Assembly (NCBI GenBank): GCA_945871065.1
Contig: CAMBUL010000024.1
Span: 1 to 34,603 of the forward strand
Reading direction: 5' to 3'
Length of the DNA: 34,603 nt
Source of the DNA: Chthoniobacter flavus
GTDB taxonomy: Bacteria > Verrucomicrobiota > Verrucomicrobiia > Chthoniobacterales > JACTMZ01
Shown: positions 686 through 30,463 of the stretch, piece by piece
Layout: every line of letters starts with the position of its first letter
How positions within the stretch are numbered: position 1 is the first letter of the stretch
Notes under the pieces: generated by a model
What the model was told of the DNA's origin: nothing
Database searches by the model: none
What the model saw: only the letters and a program-made list of their open reading frames with translations
Made by a program: the position numbers and the translations under genes

Positions 686-714
686 TTGACGCTGCCGCGA
701 GTATGATATATCAT
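686..714 (+). promoter_or_regulatory. mazEF promoter (-35/-10)
   Basis: TTGACG at 686-691 and TATCAT at 709-714 are separated by 17 bases and match sigma-70-type consensus at 5 of 6 positions each. The predicted transcription start near 721 lies about 4 bases before the mazE ATG, and no Shine-Dalgarno sequence precedes that ATG, so the message would be leaderless or nearly so. The -35 element sits inside a 14-base match to the structured repeat near 34.25 kb. Confidence 0.6.
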
Positions 715-7659: not shown

Positions 7660-7704
7660 GGGCAACGGCCACGATACCCGGCCTGCCGCGGGAATCCAGA
7701 AAGC

Positions 7705-7762: not shown

Positions 7763-8749
7763 TTAGAAGGAGAAGTTGGCGCTGATGCCGCCCCAGAAGG
7801 TGTTGACGGCGGTTTGACTTGTGCCAGTTCCTGCACCCGCGTACAGGTCTTGCCACTGATAAGAGTAGGCAATGTAAGGTGAAACGCTGAACCAGCTGGT
7901 GAACTGAATGGGTAGAGCAACACCAGCCTGCCAGTTGTTACCACCGTTGAAGCGGTTGTAGGCTCCATCGGAATAACGCGTATTCAAGCCGAAGTTAACG
8001 CCGAATTGCGTGTAAGGCTCGAGGGCCACGGCGCCGTCATAGGCAACCGGCACGTTCATATCCAAGCCCAGGATCCAGTAGGAGGAGCCGCCATTGACCG
8101 CTCCGCCATAAGAACCAAGCTCCGGACCGACGTTGTAGTAGTAGGTCGTGTTCGGTGTGATCGTGACCGGGCCGAGCGCGATGTCATAGGCCGCACCGAA
8201 ATAGATCTCGTTTTGCGAGTTTCCGGGCCCGGAGACTTCCGTGGCATAGTTAGGATAGTAGTAATAGATCCATCCCGCGGTGAGGGCGAGGTTTCCGAAG
8301 GTGTGCGTGTACTCGGCAAAGACATCGAGCTCGCCATAGCGCGCCTGGGCATTGGCCCCGTTCCACCAAGATCCGACGCCATACCAGACACCGGCCACGA
8401 AGGTTCCGTTCTCCCATGGGCTGATCCCGACATCGGCACCGAGCCAGTAGAGACCGTTCCCGTTGCCGAGGACATTGACGCCGCGGAACATGTACAGACT
8501 GTCCCAGCCAGTAGAGGCGTTGACCGACCACCATTTTTCGTCTTCTTCAACCACGACGATTTCTTTACCGCCCGCGGTTTTGTAGTCGGTGACCGTGACC
8601 GTCTCTGCCGTGGTGCGTCCGGCACTGATCGCCCCGGAGCGGGCCATGTCGAAGGCTTGCGCCCCGGCCGAAGTGCCGGTTTCGGATTGGGCCTGCGCCA
8701 GCGGAACCGCGAGCAACACGCCTGCCAATAATGCGATGATTTTTTTCAT
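7763..8749 (-). CDS. Outer-membrane beta-barrel protein (TorF/Gcw_chp-like porin)
   Basis: The ATG at 8749 gives 328 residues beginning with a clean signal peptide (MKKIIALLAGVLLAVPLAQAQ). Mature residues from about 75 alternate hydrophobic and polar and are very rich in Tyr, Trp, Gly and Asn, as in outer-membrane barrels, and the protein ends in ...NFSF, with the terminal Phe that BAM recognises. STGWDSLYMFRGVN resembles the first strand of the Gcw_chp/TorF putative porin family. Transported solutes cannot be inferred. It is a single gene with its own promoter, an A-rich leader lacking a Shine-Dalgarno sequence, and a strong terminator, which suggests high expression. The longer frame to 8899 is rejected because it would bury the signal peptide. 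Confidence 0.8.
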   Translation of the reverse strand: MKKIIALLAGVLLAVPLAQAQSETGTSAGAQAFDMARSGAISAGRTTAETVTVTDYKTAGGKEIVVVEEDEKWWSVNASTGWDSLYMFRGVNVLGNGNGLYWLGADVGISPWENGTFVAGVWYGVGSWWNGANAQARYGELDVFAEYTHTFGNLALTAGWIYYYYPNYATEVSGPGNSQNEIYFGAAYDIALGPVTITPNTTYYYNVGPELGSYGGAVNGGSSYWILGLDMNVPVAYDGAVALEPYTQFGVNFGLNTRYSDGAYNRFNGGNNWQAGVALPIQFTSWFSVSPYIAYSYQWQDLYAGAGTGTSQTAVNTFWGGISANFSF

Positions 8750-11556: not shown

Positions 11557-11562
11557 AAGTTA
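11557..11562 (-). promoter_or_regulatory. Candidate -10 box for a leaderless aldehyde dehydrogenase mRNA
   Basis: TAACTT on the minus strand ends 6 bases before the ATG at 11550. No convincing -35 was found (TTGTGG lies 19 bases upstream). Support comes mainly from the same spacing at the starts at 12995 and 27216. Confidence 0.35.
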
Positions 11563-11569
11563 AGCCGGA

Positions 11570-11782
11570 TCAGCGCGGTTTCCACAATGCCGCGTTGAGG
11601 CAGGACCAGAGATGCATGATCCACCCCAGCGTGCCGAGACTGACCAACCAGAGCACGCCAGCCCCGGCGAAAAAGAGCAATGCGGGGAGAAACCTGCCTT
11701 GAACCAACTGACCAAGACCCGGAACCAGGAGACTGGCTAGTGCGGCGATAACGTTTCCGGCTGATCCTTGTCCCATTGACAT
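11570..11782 (-). CDS. Small two-helix membrane protein
   Basis: A 70-residue protein from the ATG at 11782. It reads MSMGQGSAGNVIAALASL and then VPGLGQLVQGR, a turn seen in small TM2-like and related membrane proteins (P-G-x-G-Q-x-x-x-G-R), followed by a second hydrophobic stretch. A TTG at 11791 would add three residues. It lies 33 bases after the PurN-like gene and 19 bases before the aldehyde dehydrogenase on the same strand, so it is likely part of that run. Its function is unknown. Confidence 0.6.
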   Translation of the reverse strand: MSMGQGSAGNVIAALASLLVPGLGQLVQGRFLPALLFFAGAGVLWLVSLGTLGWIMHLWSCLNAALWKPR

Positions 11783-11815
11783 GAAACCCAATAAAAGCTC
11801 CCGCCGTCCGGATGT

Positions 11816-12897: not shown

Positions 12898-12959
12898 GGC
12901 GTCCAGAATGTCACCCGTCCTGCCCCGGCGCAAGTACGCGCACCACCCCTCGTCAGCGC

Positions 12960-12988
12960 GTGACCTTTGGTCTCGCGAGGGTTAGGAT
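12960..12988 (+). promoter_or_regulatory. Promoter of the FAH-ATPase unit, leaderless
   Basis: GTGACC (12960-12965) and TAGGAT (12983-12988) are separated by 17 bases. The -10 ends 6 bases before the ATG at 12995, which places the transcription start at the A of the start codon. No ribosome-binding site is present. Confidence 0.5.
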
Positions 12989-16145: not shown

Positions 16146-18551
16146 ATGTCTTGGCGGATCCTCACGCACCACACGCTGAAGACTCTTTTGCGTGTCGCGC
16201 AAGTGTTCTTTCTTTTCGTCGTCCCAGGCGCGCTGATCATTCTACATTTCAGCGGGCTTCCCCGCGCGTTGCACCCCCTGCTGCTCGACGCCGCGGCGCG
16301 GGCCGGGCTTGCTTTGCAATTCGAGCGCATGCGACTCAGCCCGATCGAGGGGCTCGTCCTCGACGGGGTAAGGCTGCGCTCCGAAACGCTTCCCGAAAAA
16401 CCCGAGGTCGCGGTAGACCGCGCAGCCGTCGCTCTCGACTGGCGGCAACTGATGCGCGGCCAGGTCGAACTGAATTCCCTCGACCTGCGCGGCGCGCAAC
16501 TTTTCCTCCCCTTGTCAGGCTCGGATGGCGTGGCCCAAATATTGCGCCTGACCAAAGCGCGGGCCCGCCTGATTCTTTCCGACAGGGTGGTCAGTGTCCC
16601 GCTGGCCCGCTTCAATTTGCAGGGCATCAATGTGGTCGCTAGCGGACAAGTTGCGCTGGACGGTCCGGCGGACGATGGCGCCCCGTTGGTCGTTCCGCAA
16701 GAATTGGCCCGCATTGTGGAAATCATCGAGGCACTGGATTTCGGGACAAATCCCCCCGAGCTGCAGTTGGACTTCACCGCCCGTGCCGGCCAACCGGATT
16801 CGCTGCAACTGCCGCGCATCCGACTCTTGGCTTCCGAGGCAACCTTCGGCCAGGTGCACTTGCGCGACATCCGTTTGGATGCCACCTACGTGGACCGTGT
16901 CCTCTCTATCCAGCGCCTTACTGCGCGCGATGCCAAACGCGGCAGCTTCGACCTCTCGGGTCAGTGGAACATGGCGACCGGACGCGCGCGGGCCGATTGG
17001 AGTTATGCACTCGACCCGGCGCCGTGGCTGGCGGAATGGCATCCCGATGGGCCGTGGGGCGAATTGTCATTCGCCGCCCCACCGACCGTGCAGGGCAATC
17101 TCGAGGTCGAACCGGGCACACCACGCCGCGTGCAAGTGCTGGGCACGGCCGTGGCCGGTGAGTTTTCTTTCCGTGGCGTGAAGTTCGACTCTCTGGCTGG
17201 CGGCTTTGCCTGGCGCGATGGCGACCTCTACATCAGCGATGCCGTCATCGGTCTGGGCGGGGGGGAAATCCGCAGCGACTTCATGCTGCGCCCCGGCGAT
17301 GTGCGCCTGCGCGTCGATTGCCGGGCCGACCCGCTCCCTCTAGCCGCATTGCTCAACGAGCGGGACCGGCAAGGCGTGGCCAAGCTGAATCTCAAATTGA
17401 CCGACGTACCGTCTGTCCGCTTCGAGGCGCACGGGCCCGAGTTGGATATCGCTCAACTCAGCGCCACCGGAAAAATGGAGCTCGGGCGCACTTCAATCCA
17501 CGACTCGCCGATGGAGAACGCCTCGGCGGACCTGTCCTTTGCCGACCGCGCGCTCACCCTGAGCAATATCAGAGTCAAGCGTCCCGAAGGCTCGGGATCC
17601 GGGGCTTTCACCTATGACTTCAAACGCCAGCAGGTGCGTCTCGAGGGGATCCGCAGCACGATGAACATTTTCAATGTTCTGCAGTGGGCCGATCCCAAAA
17701 TCGCACCCGAAACCAAGCCCTACCGCTTCAAAGCACCCCCCGAGGTCACGGTTGGCGGCGTCATCGGGCTCAAGGACCCCACGCAGACGCGCCTCTGGGC
17801 AAATTTCACCGCGCCAGGAGGGCTCGATTATGACTTGCTTGACCGCACCCTGAATTTCGGCGCGACCAGCGGTTCCCTCGAGTTCACCGGCCGGAAGATC
17901 AAAGTTGATGTGCCGTCGGCTCGGCTCTTCGGCGGCTCGGCGCAAATCACGGCCGAGATCAACACGGGCCAGCCCGGTGTGCCACAATCAGTTGATGTGG
18001 AACTCAACTCCGTCGACTTCGAGACATTGACCCGCCTTTACTTCGATTACAAAGGTTCAAAGGGCTTGGTCAGCGGACGCTATAAGTTCAGCTTCGTTCC
18101 CGGCTCCCCGAAGCTCATGCAGGGCAACGGCAACCTGCTGGTCGAAAATGGCGATGTGTTTGCCATTCCGGTCCTCGGCCCGCTCTCCGCGGTCCTCGGG
18201 AGCATCGTGCCGGGCACCGGTTATCAGACCGCGCGGCGGGCGACTTGTGACTTCCGCGTGGCCGACGGTGAGATCCGCACGGATAACCTCGATGTCACCG
18301 GCCAAGGTTTCAGCATGATCGGCCAGGGTTCGCTCTTTTACCTGCGTGACGCCATGGATTTCTCGGTGCGCATCAACGCGCAGGGGGTTCCCGGGCTCCT
18401 GCTCTACCCGGTGAGCAAACTGCTCGAATATGTGTCGGACGGAAAACTATCCAATCCGCAATGGCGGCCCAAAGCACTGCCCAAGGGGCCTTCGAAGCCG
18501 CAGGAGCAGCCGCCGAAGAAAGACGAAGCCGGGGACCGGTCTGCTACTTGA
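16146..18551 (+). CDS. AsmA/TamB-like envelope protein
   Basis: This 801-residue protein has a single N-terminal membrane helix (about 13-35) followed by a long strand-rich body with repeats of the kind [12 protein letters not shown] and [15 protein letters not shown], as in AsmA, YhdP and TamB proteins that bridge the periplasm and help move phospholipids or assemble outer-membrane components. The region about 620-760, with [20 protein letters not shown] and [18 protein letters not shown], matches the AsmA-like C-terminal domain. The tail is rich in Pro and Lys. It starts 34 bases after the ATPase gene and may be read through from it. Its last 8 bases overlap the convergent rpsR. Confidence 0.8.
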
Positions 18552-18783
18552 GGAGCAGGACGGAGCGAGCCCGCTTGATCGCGCGCGTGATGCGGCGGTG
18601 CAAGTGGGCCGGCACACCGGTGAGGCGACGGGGAAGAATTTTGCCGGTTTCGGTGACGAATCGGCGGAGCAGTTCCGGATTTTTGTAATCGATCGCTTCG
18701 ACCGGGAGGTCGATACGGCGGCGGGGCATCGGGCGGTTGGCCCGGCGCATGGCAGCGCGGCGTTTGGGTGTCTTGGGTTGCAT
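18544..18783 (-). CDS. rpsR: Ribosomal protein bS18
   Basis: This 79-residue small-subunit protein has the conserved core [26 protein letters not shown] and the C-terminal helix [14 protein letters not shown] of bS18. The N-terminus is arginine-rich and has no cysteine, so it lacks the CxxC pair of zinc-binding bS18 forms. It starts 6 bases after the L33 stop and is the last gene of the minus-strand run with the DksA-like gene and L33. Its stop overlaps the stop of the convergent AsmA-like gene. Confidence 0.95.
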
Positions 18784-25155: not shown

Positions 25156-25173
25156 GTGAGCCTCAATTCTGCC

Positions 25174-27132
25174 TCAAGCCGCCCCGCGGCGCAACGCGTC
25201 CGCGTGCAGCCAGTCCCACAGGCGGTCGACCGAGGCCTGCACCCGCCCGCGCGCCGCGGCCACTTCCTCCGCCGTCATCTTCTGCCCCGGGGGTTTCTCC
25301 ACGCCGAAAATGTAATATTTGATCTTCGGCTCGGTGCCGCTCGGACGCACCGCACAACGCCTTCCGTCGGCCAGCGTGAAGATAATCATCCCCTCGGCCG
25401 GGATGCGCTCACCCTCCGTGTCGTGAATCGTATCGGCCGCGAAATTTTCCATTTTCACCACCGCCGCACCGTCCATCTCTTCCGGCGGATTCCCGGCGTA
25501 GGACGCGGCCAACTTCGCGATTTGCGCCGCACCCTCCGCCCCTTCGAAAACGAGCGACTCCCCGCGCTCCAGGTAGACCCCGAGTGTGGCAAAAATCTCA
25601 TCCAGATACTCCACCGCGGTCATCCCCCGGGAGCGGGCATAAGCCGCGACCTCGGCAAAACCGGCCACCGCCGCATTGGCATCCTTGTCGCGCGCGAAAT
25701 CCGAAAGCGTGTAGCCGTAACTCTCCTCACCGCCCATGACCAAGAGCGAGGAGTGCGCCAAGCGCAGTTGCCGCGTCTCCTCCTCGGGGAGGCGCCGGTA
25801 ATCCGCGCGCAGCGCCTCGGGGATCGCCTCCTCGTATTGGCGCAGCTTAGCCGCATTGTATTTGAACCCGGTCAAAGTCTCCACGCAGCGCAAACCGAAA
25901 TGCTCCGCCACCGCCTTCTGCAGGTCGGTTGTCACGAAAGTCTTGATGATCACACCGCGCGACTTGTTCGTCTCGTCGAGAATGCCCAATTCGAACATCC
26001 GCGAGGCGCGATAGTAGGCCAGCATCGAGCCAATCTGGTTGCCGGTCAGCAACTCCATCCGCCCCGCACGGTTGCGCACCGCCACACCCATGCGGTCGTC
26101 ATCGGGGTCGGTCGCCATGACCAAATCCGCCCCGATCTTGTCAGCCAATTGCAGCGCCATGGTCAAGGCCTCGGCATATTCCGGGTTGGGCGACTTGACG
26201 GTGGGAAAACGGCTGTCCGGCACAATTTGCTCCGGCACCGCGGTCGCGTCCAAACCGAGACGCTGCAGCAAGGGCATGATGATCGATGCCCCTACGCCAT
26301 GCAGGGGCGAATAGACAATCTTGAGCCCCTTCTCGCGTGCCACCAGCGCCGGATCCAGCACCACGCGCTCCAAACGGTCGAGATAAGCCTCGTCCATCTC
26401 CGCGCCGAGGGTCACGCGCCGGCCCTGTTCATCCGGCGGCAACGGTTCGTAATGCGGGCTCTGCACCGCATTGACCACGGCAATAATCCCCGAGGCATGC
26501 GGTTCGACCACCTGGCCGCCGTCGTTGAAATAAACTTTGTATCCATTGTAAGCAGGCGGGTTGTGGCTGGCCGTAAGGTTGATCCCGGCCGCGGCATCGG
26601 TCTGGCGCACGGCGAAGCTCAGCTCGGGTGTCGGGCGCGGTTCGGCAAAAACCAGCGCATCGCAGCCGAGTTCGGTGATCACTTTGGCCGCCAGGTCGGC
26701 GAATTCCCGGGAAAAGTAGCGCGTGTCGTAGCTGATGCAGATCCGCGGCCGGTACGACAACTTCTCCCGCCGGGCCCACTCCTTGACGTAGGCCACCAAC
26801 CCCTGTGTGGCCCGGTTCACATTGCGGTCATTCATCGCGTTGGTCCCCGTGCAGGGAAATTGCGGACGGTCCATGGCCTGCGGCGTACCGCGCTCGGCCG
26901 CCGTCACGACCGTGCCAATCGTCTTGCCCCGCAAACCGCCGGTCCCGAACGCCAAGGTGCGGAAGAACCGGTTGTTCAGCTCCTCCCAGTTTCCCGAGGA
27001 CGCCAATTCGGCGATACTCGCCCGTTCGTACGTCTCGGGATTTGCGGCCAGCAAGGAGTTGATGTTTTCCAGCGAGGACGCGAGCAACCCGTGCCGCAGC
27101 CCCTCTTGCAACAAAGCCGGAAGATTTTCCAT
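25174..27132 (-). CDS. Phosphoglucomutase/phosphomannomutase family enzyme
   Basis: This 652-residue alpha-D-phosphohexomutase has the phosphoserine loop TASHNPP (S189), the metal-binding loop DPDDDR (342-347), the sugar-recognition loop GGEESYG (467-473) and the phosphate-binding motif RPSGTEPK (596-603). It interconverts hexose 1- and 6-phosphates; the GEESYG form is typical of PgcA/PGM2-like bacterial enzymes. It is longer than the usual 550-600 residues, with an N-terminal helical extension. The ATG at 27132 is preferred over upstream starts in the same frame because GGGAGG lies 3 bases before it, and TATATT (27147-27142) is a -10 candidate. Confidence 0.92.
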   Translation of the reverse strand: MENLPALLQEGLRHGLLASSLENINSLLAANPETYERASIAELASSGNWEELNNRFFRTLAFGTGGLRGKTIGTVVTAAERGTPQAMDRPQFPCTGTNAMNDRNVNRATQGLVAYVKEWARREKLSYRPRICISYDTRYFSREFADLAAKVITELGCDALVFAEPRPTPELSFAVRQTDAAAGINLTASHNPPAYNGYKVYFNDGGQVVEPHASGIIAVVNAVQSPHYEPLPPDEQGRRVTLGAEMDEAYLDRLERVVLDPALVAREKGLKIVYSPLHGVGASIIMPLLQRLGLDATAVPEQIVPDSRFPTVKSPNPEYAEALTMALQLADKIGADLVMATDPDDDRMGVAVRNRAGRMELLTGNQIGSMLAYYRASRMFELGILDETNKSRGVIIKTFVTTDLQKAVAEHFGLRCVETLTGFKYNAAKLRQYEEAIPEALRADYRRLPEEETRQLRLAHSSLLVMGGEESYGYTLSDFARDKDANAAVAGFAEVAAYARSRGMTAVEYLDEIFATLGVYLERGESLVFEGAEGAAQIAKLAASYAGNPPEEMDGAAVVKMENFAADTIHDTEGERIPAEGMIIFTLADGRRCAVRPSGTEPKIKYYIFGVEKPPGQKMTAEEVAAARGRVQASVDRLWDWLHADALRRGAA

Positions 27133-27141
27133 AGACCTCCC

Positions 27142-27171
27142 AATATACGGGATACGCCCCACCACTGGAAA
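27142..27171 (-). promoter_or_regulatory. Promoter of the phosphohexomutase-htrA unit
   Basis: TTTCCA (27171-27166) and TATATT (27147-27142), spacing 18, on the minus strand. The -10 ends 9 bases before the ATG, so the leader would be only a few bases long. It is back-to-back with the plus-strand promoter at 27181-27209. Confidence 0.45.
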
Positions 27172-27180
27172 GTCCCACCG

Positions 27181-27209
27181 TTGCGACCGGACCGCCGCCC
27201 GACTACAAT
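27181..27209 (+). promoter_or_regulatory. Promoter of the RND permease gene, leaderless
   Basis: TTGCGA (27181-27186) and TACAAT (27204-27209) have exactly 17 bases between them, and the -10 ends 6 bases before the ATG at 27216. This places transcription start at or next to the start codon. No Shine-Dalgarno sequence is visible. Confidence 0.55.
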
Positions 27210-27215
27210 GTCGAC

Positions 27216-30200
27216 ATGGGTCTGGCCGCATGGAGTGTGAAAAACCGCGTCGCGGTCAATATTTTCACCCTCGTGGTCATCTTCGCCGGCTACTACGCGG
27301 CCTTCAGCGAATTGCAGCGCGACCTCTTCCCCGACGTCACGACCAACTTTGTCCTCGTCACCACGCTGGACGCCACCACCGCCGCGCCGGAGGACATCGA
27401 GCGCACCATCACCGTGCCCATCGAGGAGGAACTGGCCAGTGTCAAGGGCCTCGCCAAGATCCGCTCCATTTCGCAAGACAATTTCTCGAACATCTTCGTC
27501 GAGGTCGACCCCGCCATCAACGATATCCAACCCGTGCTCAACGACGTCCGCCAGGCAGTGGACAAAGCCCGCGCCGAACTCCCCCGGTCGGCCGAACCTT
27601 CCGTTGTCGAGGAATTCGACATCCCCCTGCCCCTTGTCACCTTCACCGTTTCCTACCCACCCGGCTTCGATCTGCGCAAAATCCGTCCTGTCCTCGACGA
27701 CATTGAGCGCAAACTGAAACTCGTCCCCGGCGTCTCCAAAGTCCTGGTCGACGGCCTCGAGCGCCGTGAGGTCTGGGTTGAAGTCGATCCTTACCGCTTG
27801 CGCCTCGCGGGATTGTCGCTCACCGAGGTGATGGACGCCGTCGCGGCAAAAAATGTCAATGTGGTGGGCGGACGCCTCGACGCCGCCGGCGGGCAACGTG
27901 TCGTCCGTCTGCTCGGGGAAATCACCGCCGCCGAACAACTCGAAGACTTGCCCCTCGGACGCAGCTCCGACGGCCGCACGGTCAAAATCCGCGACATCGC
28001 TTCGGTCAAAGAGACCTCGGAAAAGCCCCAATCCTACGGCCGTGTCAACATGCGTCCCGCCGTCACTTTCACCGTGGTGAAAAAGCGCGGCACCGACGTC
28101 ATCGAAACCGTGCGCAAAGCGCGCCAGATTTTCGTCGCGGAAGCCGCCGTCCTCCCGCCATCGGTCGAGACGCAGGTCATCGGCGACACCACCAAATACA
28201 TCAACACCCGCATCGAAACCGTGGCCGAGAACGGCATCCAATCGCTCATCCTCGTCACCGCCATTCTGCTCCTTTTTCTCGACTGGCGCGTCGCGCTGAT
28301 GGTCGCATTCGGCATCCCCTTTTCCTTTGCCGGTACCTTTCTCGTCCTCTACCTCGGAGGATTTTCGATCAATATGCTTTCCCTCTTTGGCATGATCATG
28401 GCCCTCGGCATGGTGGTCGACGACGCCATCGTCACGTCAGAAAACGCTTTCCGCCACTACAGTGCCGGCGAATCCGCCGCGACTGCCGCCGTGCGCGGAG
28501 CACATGAAGTCGTGTGGCCGGTCTTCGGCAGCGTCAGCACCACCGTCGCCGCATTCCTCCCCCTAATTTGGGGCGAAGGCATCATCGGCAAATTTCTTGC
28601 CATTGTTCCGGTGGTCGTCATCGCCACGCTTTGCTTTTCCCTGCTTCAAGCCTTCCTTGTTCTGCCCTCGCATCTGGCCGACTTCCTCCGCCCGGTCCGT
28701 TCGGCGACCGACCGCCGCGCCGCCATGGCGAGGGATCCCGCTCGAGGTTTCCGCCGCTTGAGCCGCGGAGTTGGGCTTTCCTACGCGGAACTGCGCGAGG
28801 CCGTCGATCGTGTACTTTCCCGCACCATCGAAATCTACGCCCACCTCCTCAACCTCGCCCTCCGCACGCGCTATGCCGTGGTCGGCGTCTTCATGGCCGC
28901 CCTGCTCTTCGTCGGCGGTCTGGTCTACGCTGGCGTCGTCCCGTTCCGGCTCTTTGCCACCGATTTTTCCGACGCGATCAACGTCAAACTCGAACTCCCC
29001 GCCGACTATACGCTCGACCAGACCGCGGATGTCGCCGCACGCGTCGAGCAGGCCATCATCGACACCCTGCCGGCTTCCGATCTGGTCGCCATTCTCACCC
29101 GCATCGGGGTGATGTTCGACTCGGACAACGAATTCCTCGAATACGGAACCAACCTTGTCACCATCATCGTGGATCTCGACGAGCAAAGCCCCGCCTGCCG
29201 CAAACCCTCGGTCATCGAGCGCGATCTGCGCAACATGCTTGTCGCCTTCCCGGAGCTGGTCACCGGAATCGCCAAAAAAGAAGAAGGCGGACCGCCTGTC
29301 GGGCGTGCGCTGAACATCGAAATCCGCGGCATCGACCTCGACACCCTCAAGGCCGCCGCGGCCGACGTCGAGCAGCGGCTCGCGCAGGTTCCCGGGCTAA
29401 TCAATACCGGAAATGACTTCCCGCGCGGCAAAACCGAGTACCGTCTCCGCCTCGACGAAGACCGCTCTTCGCGCGCCGGACTCGACGCCACCCAAGTCGG
29501 ACGCACCCTCCTCGGCGCCTTCCGCGGCCTCGAAGCTTCCCGCCTGCGCTGGGGTAACGACGAGGTCATCGTTCGCGTCAAGATGGATGAGCGGTTCAGC
29601 CAGGACCCCGACCTTGTCGGCAACCTCCTGGTCAAAGGCCCGCAAGGCGCGGTCGATGTCGCCAGCCTCGCCACCGTCGAGCGGGTCAGCGGTGTCGCCC
29701 GCATCAAACGGACCAACCAGGAACGCGTCATCACCATCTCGGCCGACATCGATCCGCGCGAGACAACCTCGAACGAGGTCAACCAGATCTTCACCGCGAT
29801 GGTCCCCGAATTGCTCGCGGCCCATCCCGGCGCCGGCATCCAGCTGACCGGAGAAAGCGAAGACACTGAGCGCAGCCTCGCCGCGATGAAGTTCGCCTCC
29901 TTCGTGGCCATTTTCCTCATTTACGCCCTCCTTGCCACCATCACCAACTCGTTCCTCCAGCCGATTGTCATCATGGCCGTCATTCCCTTCGGCATCGTCG
30001 GCGTGGTCCTCGGCCTCCTCTTCACCGGCCAACCCATGGGTCTGATGTCGATCATGGGAACCATTGCCCTCGCCGGCATCGTGGTGAACAACTCCATCGT
30101 CTTCGTCGACTTTATCAACTCCTACCGCCAAAACCGTGACACCGCCAACCCCCGCGTCCGCTGGCACTCGATCATCGCCAGCGGCTGCACCCGCTTCCGC

Positions 30201-30452
30201 CCCATTTTCCTCACCACTATCACCACGGTGGTCGGCCTTTTCAGCCTTGCCTTTCTCAGCACCGGCCAAGAGCAGTTCCTCGCCCCCATGGCCCAGGCCA
30301 TCATTTGGGGCCTCACCTTCGCCACGCTGATCACCCTCGTTCTCATCCCCGCTCTCTACGCCATCCTCGACGACCTGAACCTTGCCACCGCCCGTCGCCC
30401 ACAAAATTCCGCCTCCCCCACCCGCCCAGCGGACTTTCCCTCGCCCGCCTGA
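27216..30452 (+). CDS. RND-family efflux permease (AcrB/HAE1-like)
   Basis: This 1078-residue inner-membrane transporter has the RND duplicated layout: helix 1 (about 12-30), a large periplasmic loop (about 31-340), helices 2-6 around 341-490, a hydrophilic insertion near 500-540, helix 7 near 555-575, the second periplasmic loop and the final helices (about 890-1050). The proton-relay aspartates are visible in helix 4 (ALGMVVDDAIV, D402 and D403). Family members export drugs, lipids or metals with a membrane-fusion protein and an outer-membrane channel; neither partner is adjacent. The sequence is closer to general HAE1-type transporters than to CzcA. The next gene starts 18 bases later. Confidence 0.9.
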   Translation: MGLAAWSVKNRVAVNIFTLVVIFAGYYAAFSELQRDLFPDVTTNFVLVTTLDATTAAPEDIERTITVPIEEELASVKGLAKIRSISQDNFSNIFVEVDPAINDIQPVLNDVRQAVDKARAELPRSAEPSVVEEFDIPLPLVTFTVSYPPGFDLRKIRPVLDDIERKLKLVPGVSKVLVDGLERREVWVEVDPYRLRLAGLSLTEVMDAVAAKNVNVVGGRLDAAGGQRVVRLLGEITAAEQLEDLPLGRSSDGRTVKIRDIASVKETSEKPQSYGRVNMRPAVTFTVVKKRGTDVIETVRKARQIFVAEAAVLPPSVETQVIGDTTKYINTRIETVAENGIQSLILVTAILLLFLDWRVALMVAFGIPFSFAGTFLVLYLGGFSINMLSLFGMIMALGMVVDDAIVTSENAFRHYSAGESAATAAVRGAHEVVWPVFGSVSTTVAAFLPLIWGEGIIGKFLAIVPVVVIATLCFSLLQAFLVLPSHLADFLRPVRSATDRRAAMARDPARGFRRLSRGVGLSYAELREAVDRVLSRTIEIYAHLLNLALRTRYAVVGVFMAALLFVGGLVYAGVVPFRLFATDFSDAINVKLELPADYTLDQTADVAARVEQAIIDTLPASDLVAILTRIGVMFDSDNEFLEYGTNLVTIIVDLDEQSPACRKPSVIERDLRNMLVAFPELVTGIAKKEEGGPPVGRALNIEIRGIDLDTLKAAAADVEQRLAQVPGLINTGNDFPRGKTEYRLRLDEDRSSRAGLDATQVGRTLLGAFRGLEASRLRWGNDEVIVRVKMDERFSQDPDLVGNLLVKGPQGAVDVASLATVERVSGVARIKRTNQERVITISADIDPRETTSNEVNQIFTAMVPELLAAHPGAGIQLTGESEDTERSLAAMKFASFVAIFLIYALLATITNSFLQPIVIMAVIPFGIVGVVLGLLFTGQPMGLMSIMGTIALAGIVVNNSIVFVDFINSYRQNRDTANPRVRWHSIIASGCTRFRPIFLTTITTVVGLFSLAFLSTGQEQFLAPMAQAIIWGLTFATLITLVLIPALYAILDDLNLATARRPQNSASPTRPADFPSPA

Positions 30453-30457
30453 TCATC

Positions 30458-30463
30458 TAGGGT
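30458..30463 (+). promoter_or_regulatory. Candidate -10 box for the TPR gene
   Basis: TAGGGT ends 7 bases before the ATG at 30471. No clear -35 is seen. AAGG directly touches the ATG and is too close to act as a standard ribosome-binding site. The gene may instead be read through from the RND gene. Confidence 0.3.

Follow-up and report, generated by a model that had tools for sequence, protein, structure and literature searches.

A large share of the genes that head transcripts in this Chthoniobacter flavus genome very probably have a housekeeping (sigma-70-type) promoter lying directly against the coding sequence, and a leaderless mRNA. In the mechanism that we propose, a box just upstream of the start codon would be the -10 element of a sigma-70-type promoter with the consensus TTGCC-17-(T/C)ANNNT; RNA polymerase would start at the A of the start codon or a few bases earlier, yielding an mRNA without a leader, and ribosomes loaded with initiator tRNA would presumably recognise the 5'-terminal AUG or GUG directly, with no Shine-Dalgarno (SD) pairing. 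In roughly 40% of the divergent genes, and in about one in four genes overall, the expected +1 would coincide with the start codon or lie no more than about 4 bases from it, which supports, as a sequence inference, the original prediction that leaderless initiation is common in this organism. From the identity, position and conservation of the promoters and from the lack of SD sequences, all read in the DNA, we infer the exact 5' ends and the loading of ribosomes.

Position of the box and its -35 partner

The window, that is the whole stretch of 34,603 nucleotides analysed, corresponds to contig C24 in a draft genome of 2.53 Mb, of which 1.58 Mb was sampled. The RpoB encoded by this genome is most similar (78-80%) to those of metagenome-assembled genomes assigned to Verrucomicrobiaceae, Chthoniobacterales and Spartobacteria, which places the organism in Verrucomicrobiota and probably in Chthoniobacterales. 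A purpose-written hexamer-based finder called 1,444 genes in this sample; it is a simple caller, and a share of its gene starts will be wrong. Divergent genes were taken as the head-of-transcript class and genes at most 30 bp behind a same-strand gene as the internal class, with downstream in-frame ATGs inside the same genes as decoys for start codons.

The box had been expected to be enriched genome-wide before the first genes of units as compared with internal genes, and it is: a TANNNT ending 6-10 bases before the start was found in 65 of 370 divergent genes vs 15 of 538 internal genes (Fisher p 1.2e-14; 1.58 Mb). At spacers of 6-10 bases divergent genes have 66 boxes where 9.75 are expected (Poisson p 2e-32), the counts at spacers 5, 6, 7, 8, 9, 10 and 11 being 0, 20, 7, 15, 15, 9 and 5 against a background near 2; the peak is missing in the internal class. 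Its sharp left edge at spacer 6 is explained if the expected +1 there coincides with the A of the ATG. The box precedes 88 of 546 chosen ATGs vs 81 of 3,969 decoys, and 11 of 105 GTG and 2 of 67 TTG starts; its near absence at TTG starts fits a requirement for a purine at +1.

Although the -35 region played no part in choosing the boxes, a TTG lies 16-18 bases upstream of 48 of 103 of them (47%), vs 82 of 3,337 sites in coding DNA (2.5%; p 6e-44). In an alignment anchored at the box, the frequencies of T, T and G at -23, -22 and -21 are 53%, 59% and 44%, which corresponds to a 17-base spacing. An expectation-maximisation (EM) model, seeded with a loose sigma-70 pattern and left free in location, converged on TTGCC-17-TANNNT with the identical location peak; neither internal genes nor block shuffles yielded such a pattern by this procedure. 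A TTG-containing -35 element is thus found 17 bases from a TANNNT -10 element, as in sigma-70-type promoters. That the box marks real promoters is supported by this independent -35 element, by specificity for position and gene class, and by conservation across species.

Fractions were estimated with a later fixed-model fit, with the -10 element at 6-10 bases. It assigned the promoter-abutting configuration to 43% of divergent genes (bootstrap 37-48%; 44% and 38% in cross-validated halves), and, among same-strand genes, to 24% of those at distances of at least 60 bp, 36% at 31-59 bp and 6% at no more than 30 bp, vs 1-2% in block shuffles and 0% in E. coli K-12. Summed arithmetically over the class fractions, this makes about 23% of all genes. 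One might argue that TANNNT near starts merely reflects AT-rich unstructured DNA and no promoters, and the regions upstream of head genes are indeed somewhat more A/T-rich than those upstream of internal genes; however, the box is missing at internal genes, the -35 element stands at a fixed distance, and shuffles that keep composition stay at 1-2%, so that we consider this explanation extremely unlikely. It is also improbable, if slightly less so, that start codons were called too far upstream and that the real starts lie downstream, behind ordinary leaders. Start calling is uncertain, the aligned start being discordant in 16 of 41 head-gene orthologue pairs, but the downstream decoy ATGs lack the box, divergent genes with unambiguous starts, having no alternative one, give the same result (40%), and the alignments of the RND transporter of the window, described below, include the first residue in every orthologue.

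A stronger objection concerns the leader itself. Boxes at spacers 8-10 make up about half of all, and could go with leaders of 1-4 bases. If transcription always started 7 bases downstream of a true -10 element, this class would have such short leaders, and only spacer 6 would be strictly leaderless; the counts at spacers 8-10 do together exceed that at spacer 6. On the other side, among boxes at spacers 8-10 a purine occupies the seventh base downstream in 26% of cases, vs 40-53% at bases 1-6, and the sequence is pyrimidine-rich up to the ATG, which disfavours starts before its A. This purine depletion at the canonical +1 is modest evidence that would favour the A of the ATG as the start, and a general preference for C at -1 and -2 may account for part of it. 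We regard the fixed distance as possible but unlikely, and keep to initiation at the start codon or a few bases before it. These genes coexist with a class at 11-15 bases and one with long leaders, and leaderless genes are not the majority.

Promoters of the window

The features below are predicted for a phosphohexomutase gene, an RND transporter gene, the intergenic region between them and the start of the following TPR gene.

25174..27132, minus strand: member of the phosphoglucomutase/phosphomannomutase family; mRNA predicted to be leaderless or to begin a few bases before the start
27142..27147, minus strand: -10 element TATATT of the phosphohexomutase gene (ATG 27132), 9-base spacer
27166..27171, minus strand: -35-like element TTTCCA of the phosphohexomutase gene, 18 bases from the -10 element
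27181..27186, plus strand: -35 element TTGCGA of the RND gene, 17 bases from the -10 element; TTGC invariant in 5 congeneric sequences
27204..27209, plus strand: -10 element TACAAT of the RND gene (ATG 27216), 6-base spacer; outscores nearly all coding controls
27216..30452, plus strand: RND (AcrB-type) efflux transporter gene, PF00873, predicted leaderless
30458..30463, plus strand: -10 element TAGGGT of the TPR gene (start 30471), 7 bases; -35 element TTTCCC at 30435-30440

The RND promoter reads TTGC(C/G)N-17-TA(C/G)ANT, 6-8 bases before the ATG, in the window and in four congeneric species, while the interval has diverged. Two more distant species (L169 and L171) have no box before the RND ATG, and their sequence there resembles the final part of a coding region located upstream. 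The phosphohexomutase box TAT(A/C)TT is kept, 8-9 bases from the ATG, in the window and in all 6 congeners tested. The TPR -35 element falls within the 3' end of the RND gene; the pattern of CTTTCCC plus TANNNT is kept in 4 congeners.

Elsewhere in the window we list the following candidate elements, with promoter scores given as p against 2,886 coding controls.

686..691, plus strand: -35 element TTGACG of a ribbon-helix-helix antitoxin gene, exactly 17 bases from the box
709..714, plus strand: -10 element TATCAT of the antitoxin gene, 10 bases before the ATG at 725; p 0.0000
7671..7676, minus strand: TATCGT of a DUF4126 gene (start 7659), 11 bases before the start; weak promoter score, p 0.036
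11557..11562, minus strand: TAACTT of an aldehyde dehydrogenase (ALDH) gene (start 11550), weak and doubtful; box missing in 2 of 4 congeners
12905..12910, minus strand: -10 element CATTCT (7 bases) of a cytidylyltransferase-like gene (start 12897), -35 element TTGCGC at 12928-12933, 17-base spacing; p 0.0003
12983..12988, plus strand: -10 element TAGGAT of the FAH gene (ATG 12995), weak -35 element GTGACC at 12960-12965
25166..25171, minus strand: -10 element CAGAAT (10 bases) of a trypsin/PDZ protease gene (start GTG 25155); p 0.0000

The seven boxes of the original prediction were all found again at their spacers: TATCAT at 10 bases from the mazE-like ribbon-helix-helix gene, TAGGAT at 6 (FAH), TACAAT at 6 (RND), TAACTT at 6 (ALDH), TAGGGT at 7 (TPR), TATATT at 9 (phosphohexomutase) and TATCGT at 11 (DUF4126). 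Of the three fair -35 elements that it placed at 17 bases, TTGACG at 686 and TTGCGA at 27181 stand, but the one at 12960 (GTGACC) is weak. Nor do all boxed genes lead a unit, since ALDH and TPR lie 19 and 18 bases behind same-strand genes; TPR starts 18 bases after RND, yet its box and -35 element are conserved. The boxes beginning with C come in addition to those predicted, and that of the protease gene also has a -35 element, TTGCGC at 25189-25194, 17 bases from CAGAAT.

Conservation of the remaining boxes is uneven. Of four close FAH orthologues from congeners, two have the strict box and all four have TTGCGCAA upstream; one congener has the DUF4126 box, which lacks a good -35 element, with identical sequence and spacer. 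Upstream of ALDH, most of the conservation is due to coding sequence, that of a probable small same-strand gene (11570-11791) which ends 19 bases before the ALDH start. This small gene, on the minus strand, probably encodes a 73-aa membrane protein with a weak match to DUF6677, and its 3' end is conserved in congeners. Positions 725-1296 hold a pair of a ribbon-helix-helix antitoxin and a PemK/MazF toxin, with a strong predicted promoter abutting the antitoxin start. Gene 7763-8749, previously described as a porin, has no Pfam match and no near box, and a promoter-like site lies 50 bases upstream of it.

With strict boxes at about 5 of its 8 head genes, the window is above average, as it would be if leaderless genes were rare in the organism and the window an accident; the enrichment across 1.58 of 2.53 Mb and in the congener G104 leaves that reading hardly any probability.

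Shine-Dalgarno sequences and the bS21 gene

The boxed genes had been noted as mostly lacking an SD sequence, and this holds for the whole genome: pairing energies equal those of shuffles in non-overlapping gene classes, while the SD of E. coli was detected as a positive control. The SD as a recruitment signal was rejected on these grounds, and its absence at boxed genes, being general, does not discriminate them. The single 16S gene found nevertheless ends in ...GGATCACCTCCTTT, an intact anti-SD. In all gene classes C is frequent at -1 (44-58%) and -2 (37-55%) before the ATG, strongly so in operon-internal genes, and is possibly part of a non-SD start context. The window also contains, at 18544-18783, a gene for ribosomal protein bS18 without an SD; this protein belongs to the trio by which the anti-SD is sequestered in Bacteroidia.

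Among 1,423 genes, the sole 10/11 match to the extended SD AAAGGAGGTGA belongs to bS21 (rpsU), while shuffles gave 0.

L004 17317-17514 (G000:C3), minus strand, outside the window: bS21 (rpsU), with AAAGGATGTGA 7 bases before the ATG

The 11-mer is identical in five congeners, and the bases after it vary; in 200 kb of a genome from another family of the order (G036), bS21 is again the sole 10/11 gene (AAAGTAGGTGA). In Flavobacteriales the only SD gene is rpsU, whose product bS21 controls its own synthesis by way of anti-SD sequestration (PMC9976891, PMC8710568). The likeness lies in bS21 alone having an extended SD in a genome without SD usage (PMC9976891); the arrangement here suggests by analogy that bS21 may be autoregulated as in Flavobacteriales. 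In the literature found, this self-control is described only in Bacteroidota, including Chlorobia, and the partial coverage of our search yielded no report of a bS21 extended SD in Verrucomicrobiota. One might speculate, with the odds somewhat against it, that ribosomes of the Chthoniobacterales type ignore the SD, head genes being leaderless and the rest non-SD, and that the anti-SD is kept mainly for the self-control of bS21.

Comparison with other lineages

Under the fixed model, the share of head genes with the promoter-abutting configuration is 28% for the congener G104, 17% for a further family of the order and 23-24% for two of the families in the class; it is 8-9% for the low-GC relatives G036 and G042, where the cause may be model mismatch. 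Free EM on the 80-110 head genes of single relatives overfits, and the fixed-model fit was used instead.

Leaderless initiation is a known mode of starting genes, and the present group is hardly charted for it; GeneMarkS-2 is quoted in PMC9581028 as predicting leaderless transcription in 21.6% of bacterial species. Our results extend the map of widespread leaderless initiation into a poorly charted part of Verrucomicrobiota, provide a promoter consensus useful for correcting predicted start codons and operons in genomes of this type, and offer a second lineage besides Bacteroidota for asking why the anti-SD persists without SD use. Within the phylum, though in a different lineage, Cappable-seq of Akkermansia muciniphila placed 10% of mapped start sites at annotated start codons, as leaderless (PMC4782308); that share was measured, whereas ours is predicted, and higher. 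Two Verrucomicrobia, Akkermansia and Verrucomicrobia bacterium IMCC26134, are listed among SD-scarce genomes with an intact CCUCC (PMC10783764). Our genome has in common with the SD-scarce genomes (Bacteroidota; PMC10783764) an intact anti-SD and an unused SD, and adds many promoter-abutting starts. Given the leaderless start sites of Akkermansia and these SD-scarce Verrucomicrobia, leaderless initiation here would belong to a known kind.

The closest likeness in promoter position is to the TA-led leaderless genes of Actinobacteria and Deinococcus-Thermus (Zheng et al. 2011, PMC3160421; Zhong et al. 2025, PMC12340547), the text of the 2011 survey (PMC3160421) not naming Verrucomicrobia. They have in common a TANNNT about 12 bases before the start, high GC, no SD and enrichment at head genes; here, too, short-distance TANNNT is above chance and concentrated at head genes, the boxed starts are almost all ATG or GTG, and SD sequences are lacking. 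They differ in that our genome has a clear -35 element and a wider range of spacers (6-10). In a simple count with annotated starts, the 123 head genes of Deinococcus deserti plasmid P1 show a TANNNT peak at spacers 5-7, with TTG at -35 in 0 of 21 boxes (spacers 6-10), and the two-box model finds 0.9% there because P1 promoters lack a -35 element. The Deinococcus-type promoter usually consists of a -10 element without a -35 element, whereas 47% of the boxes described here are accompanied by a TTG.
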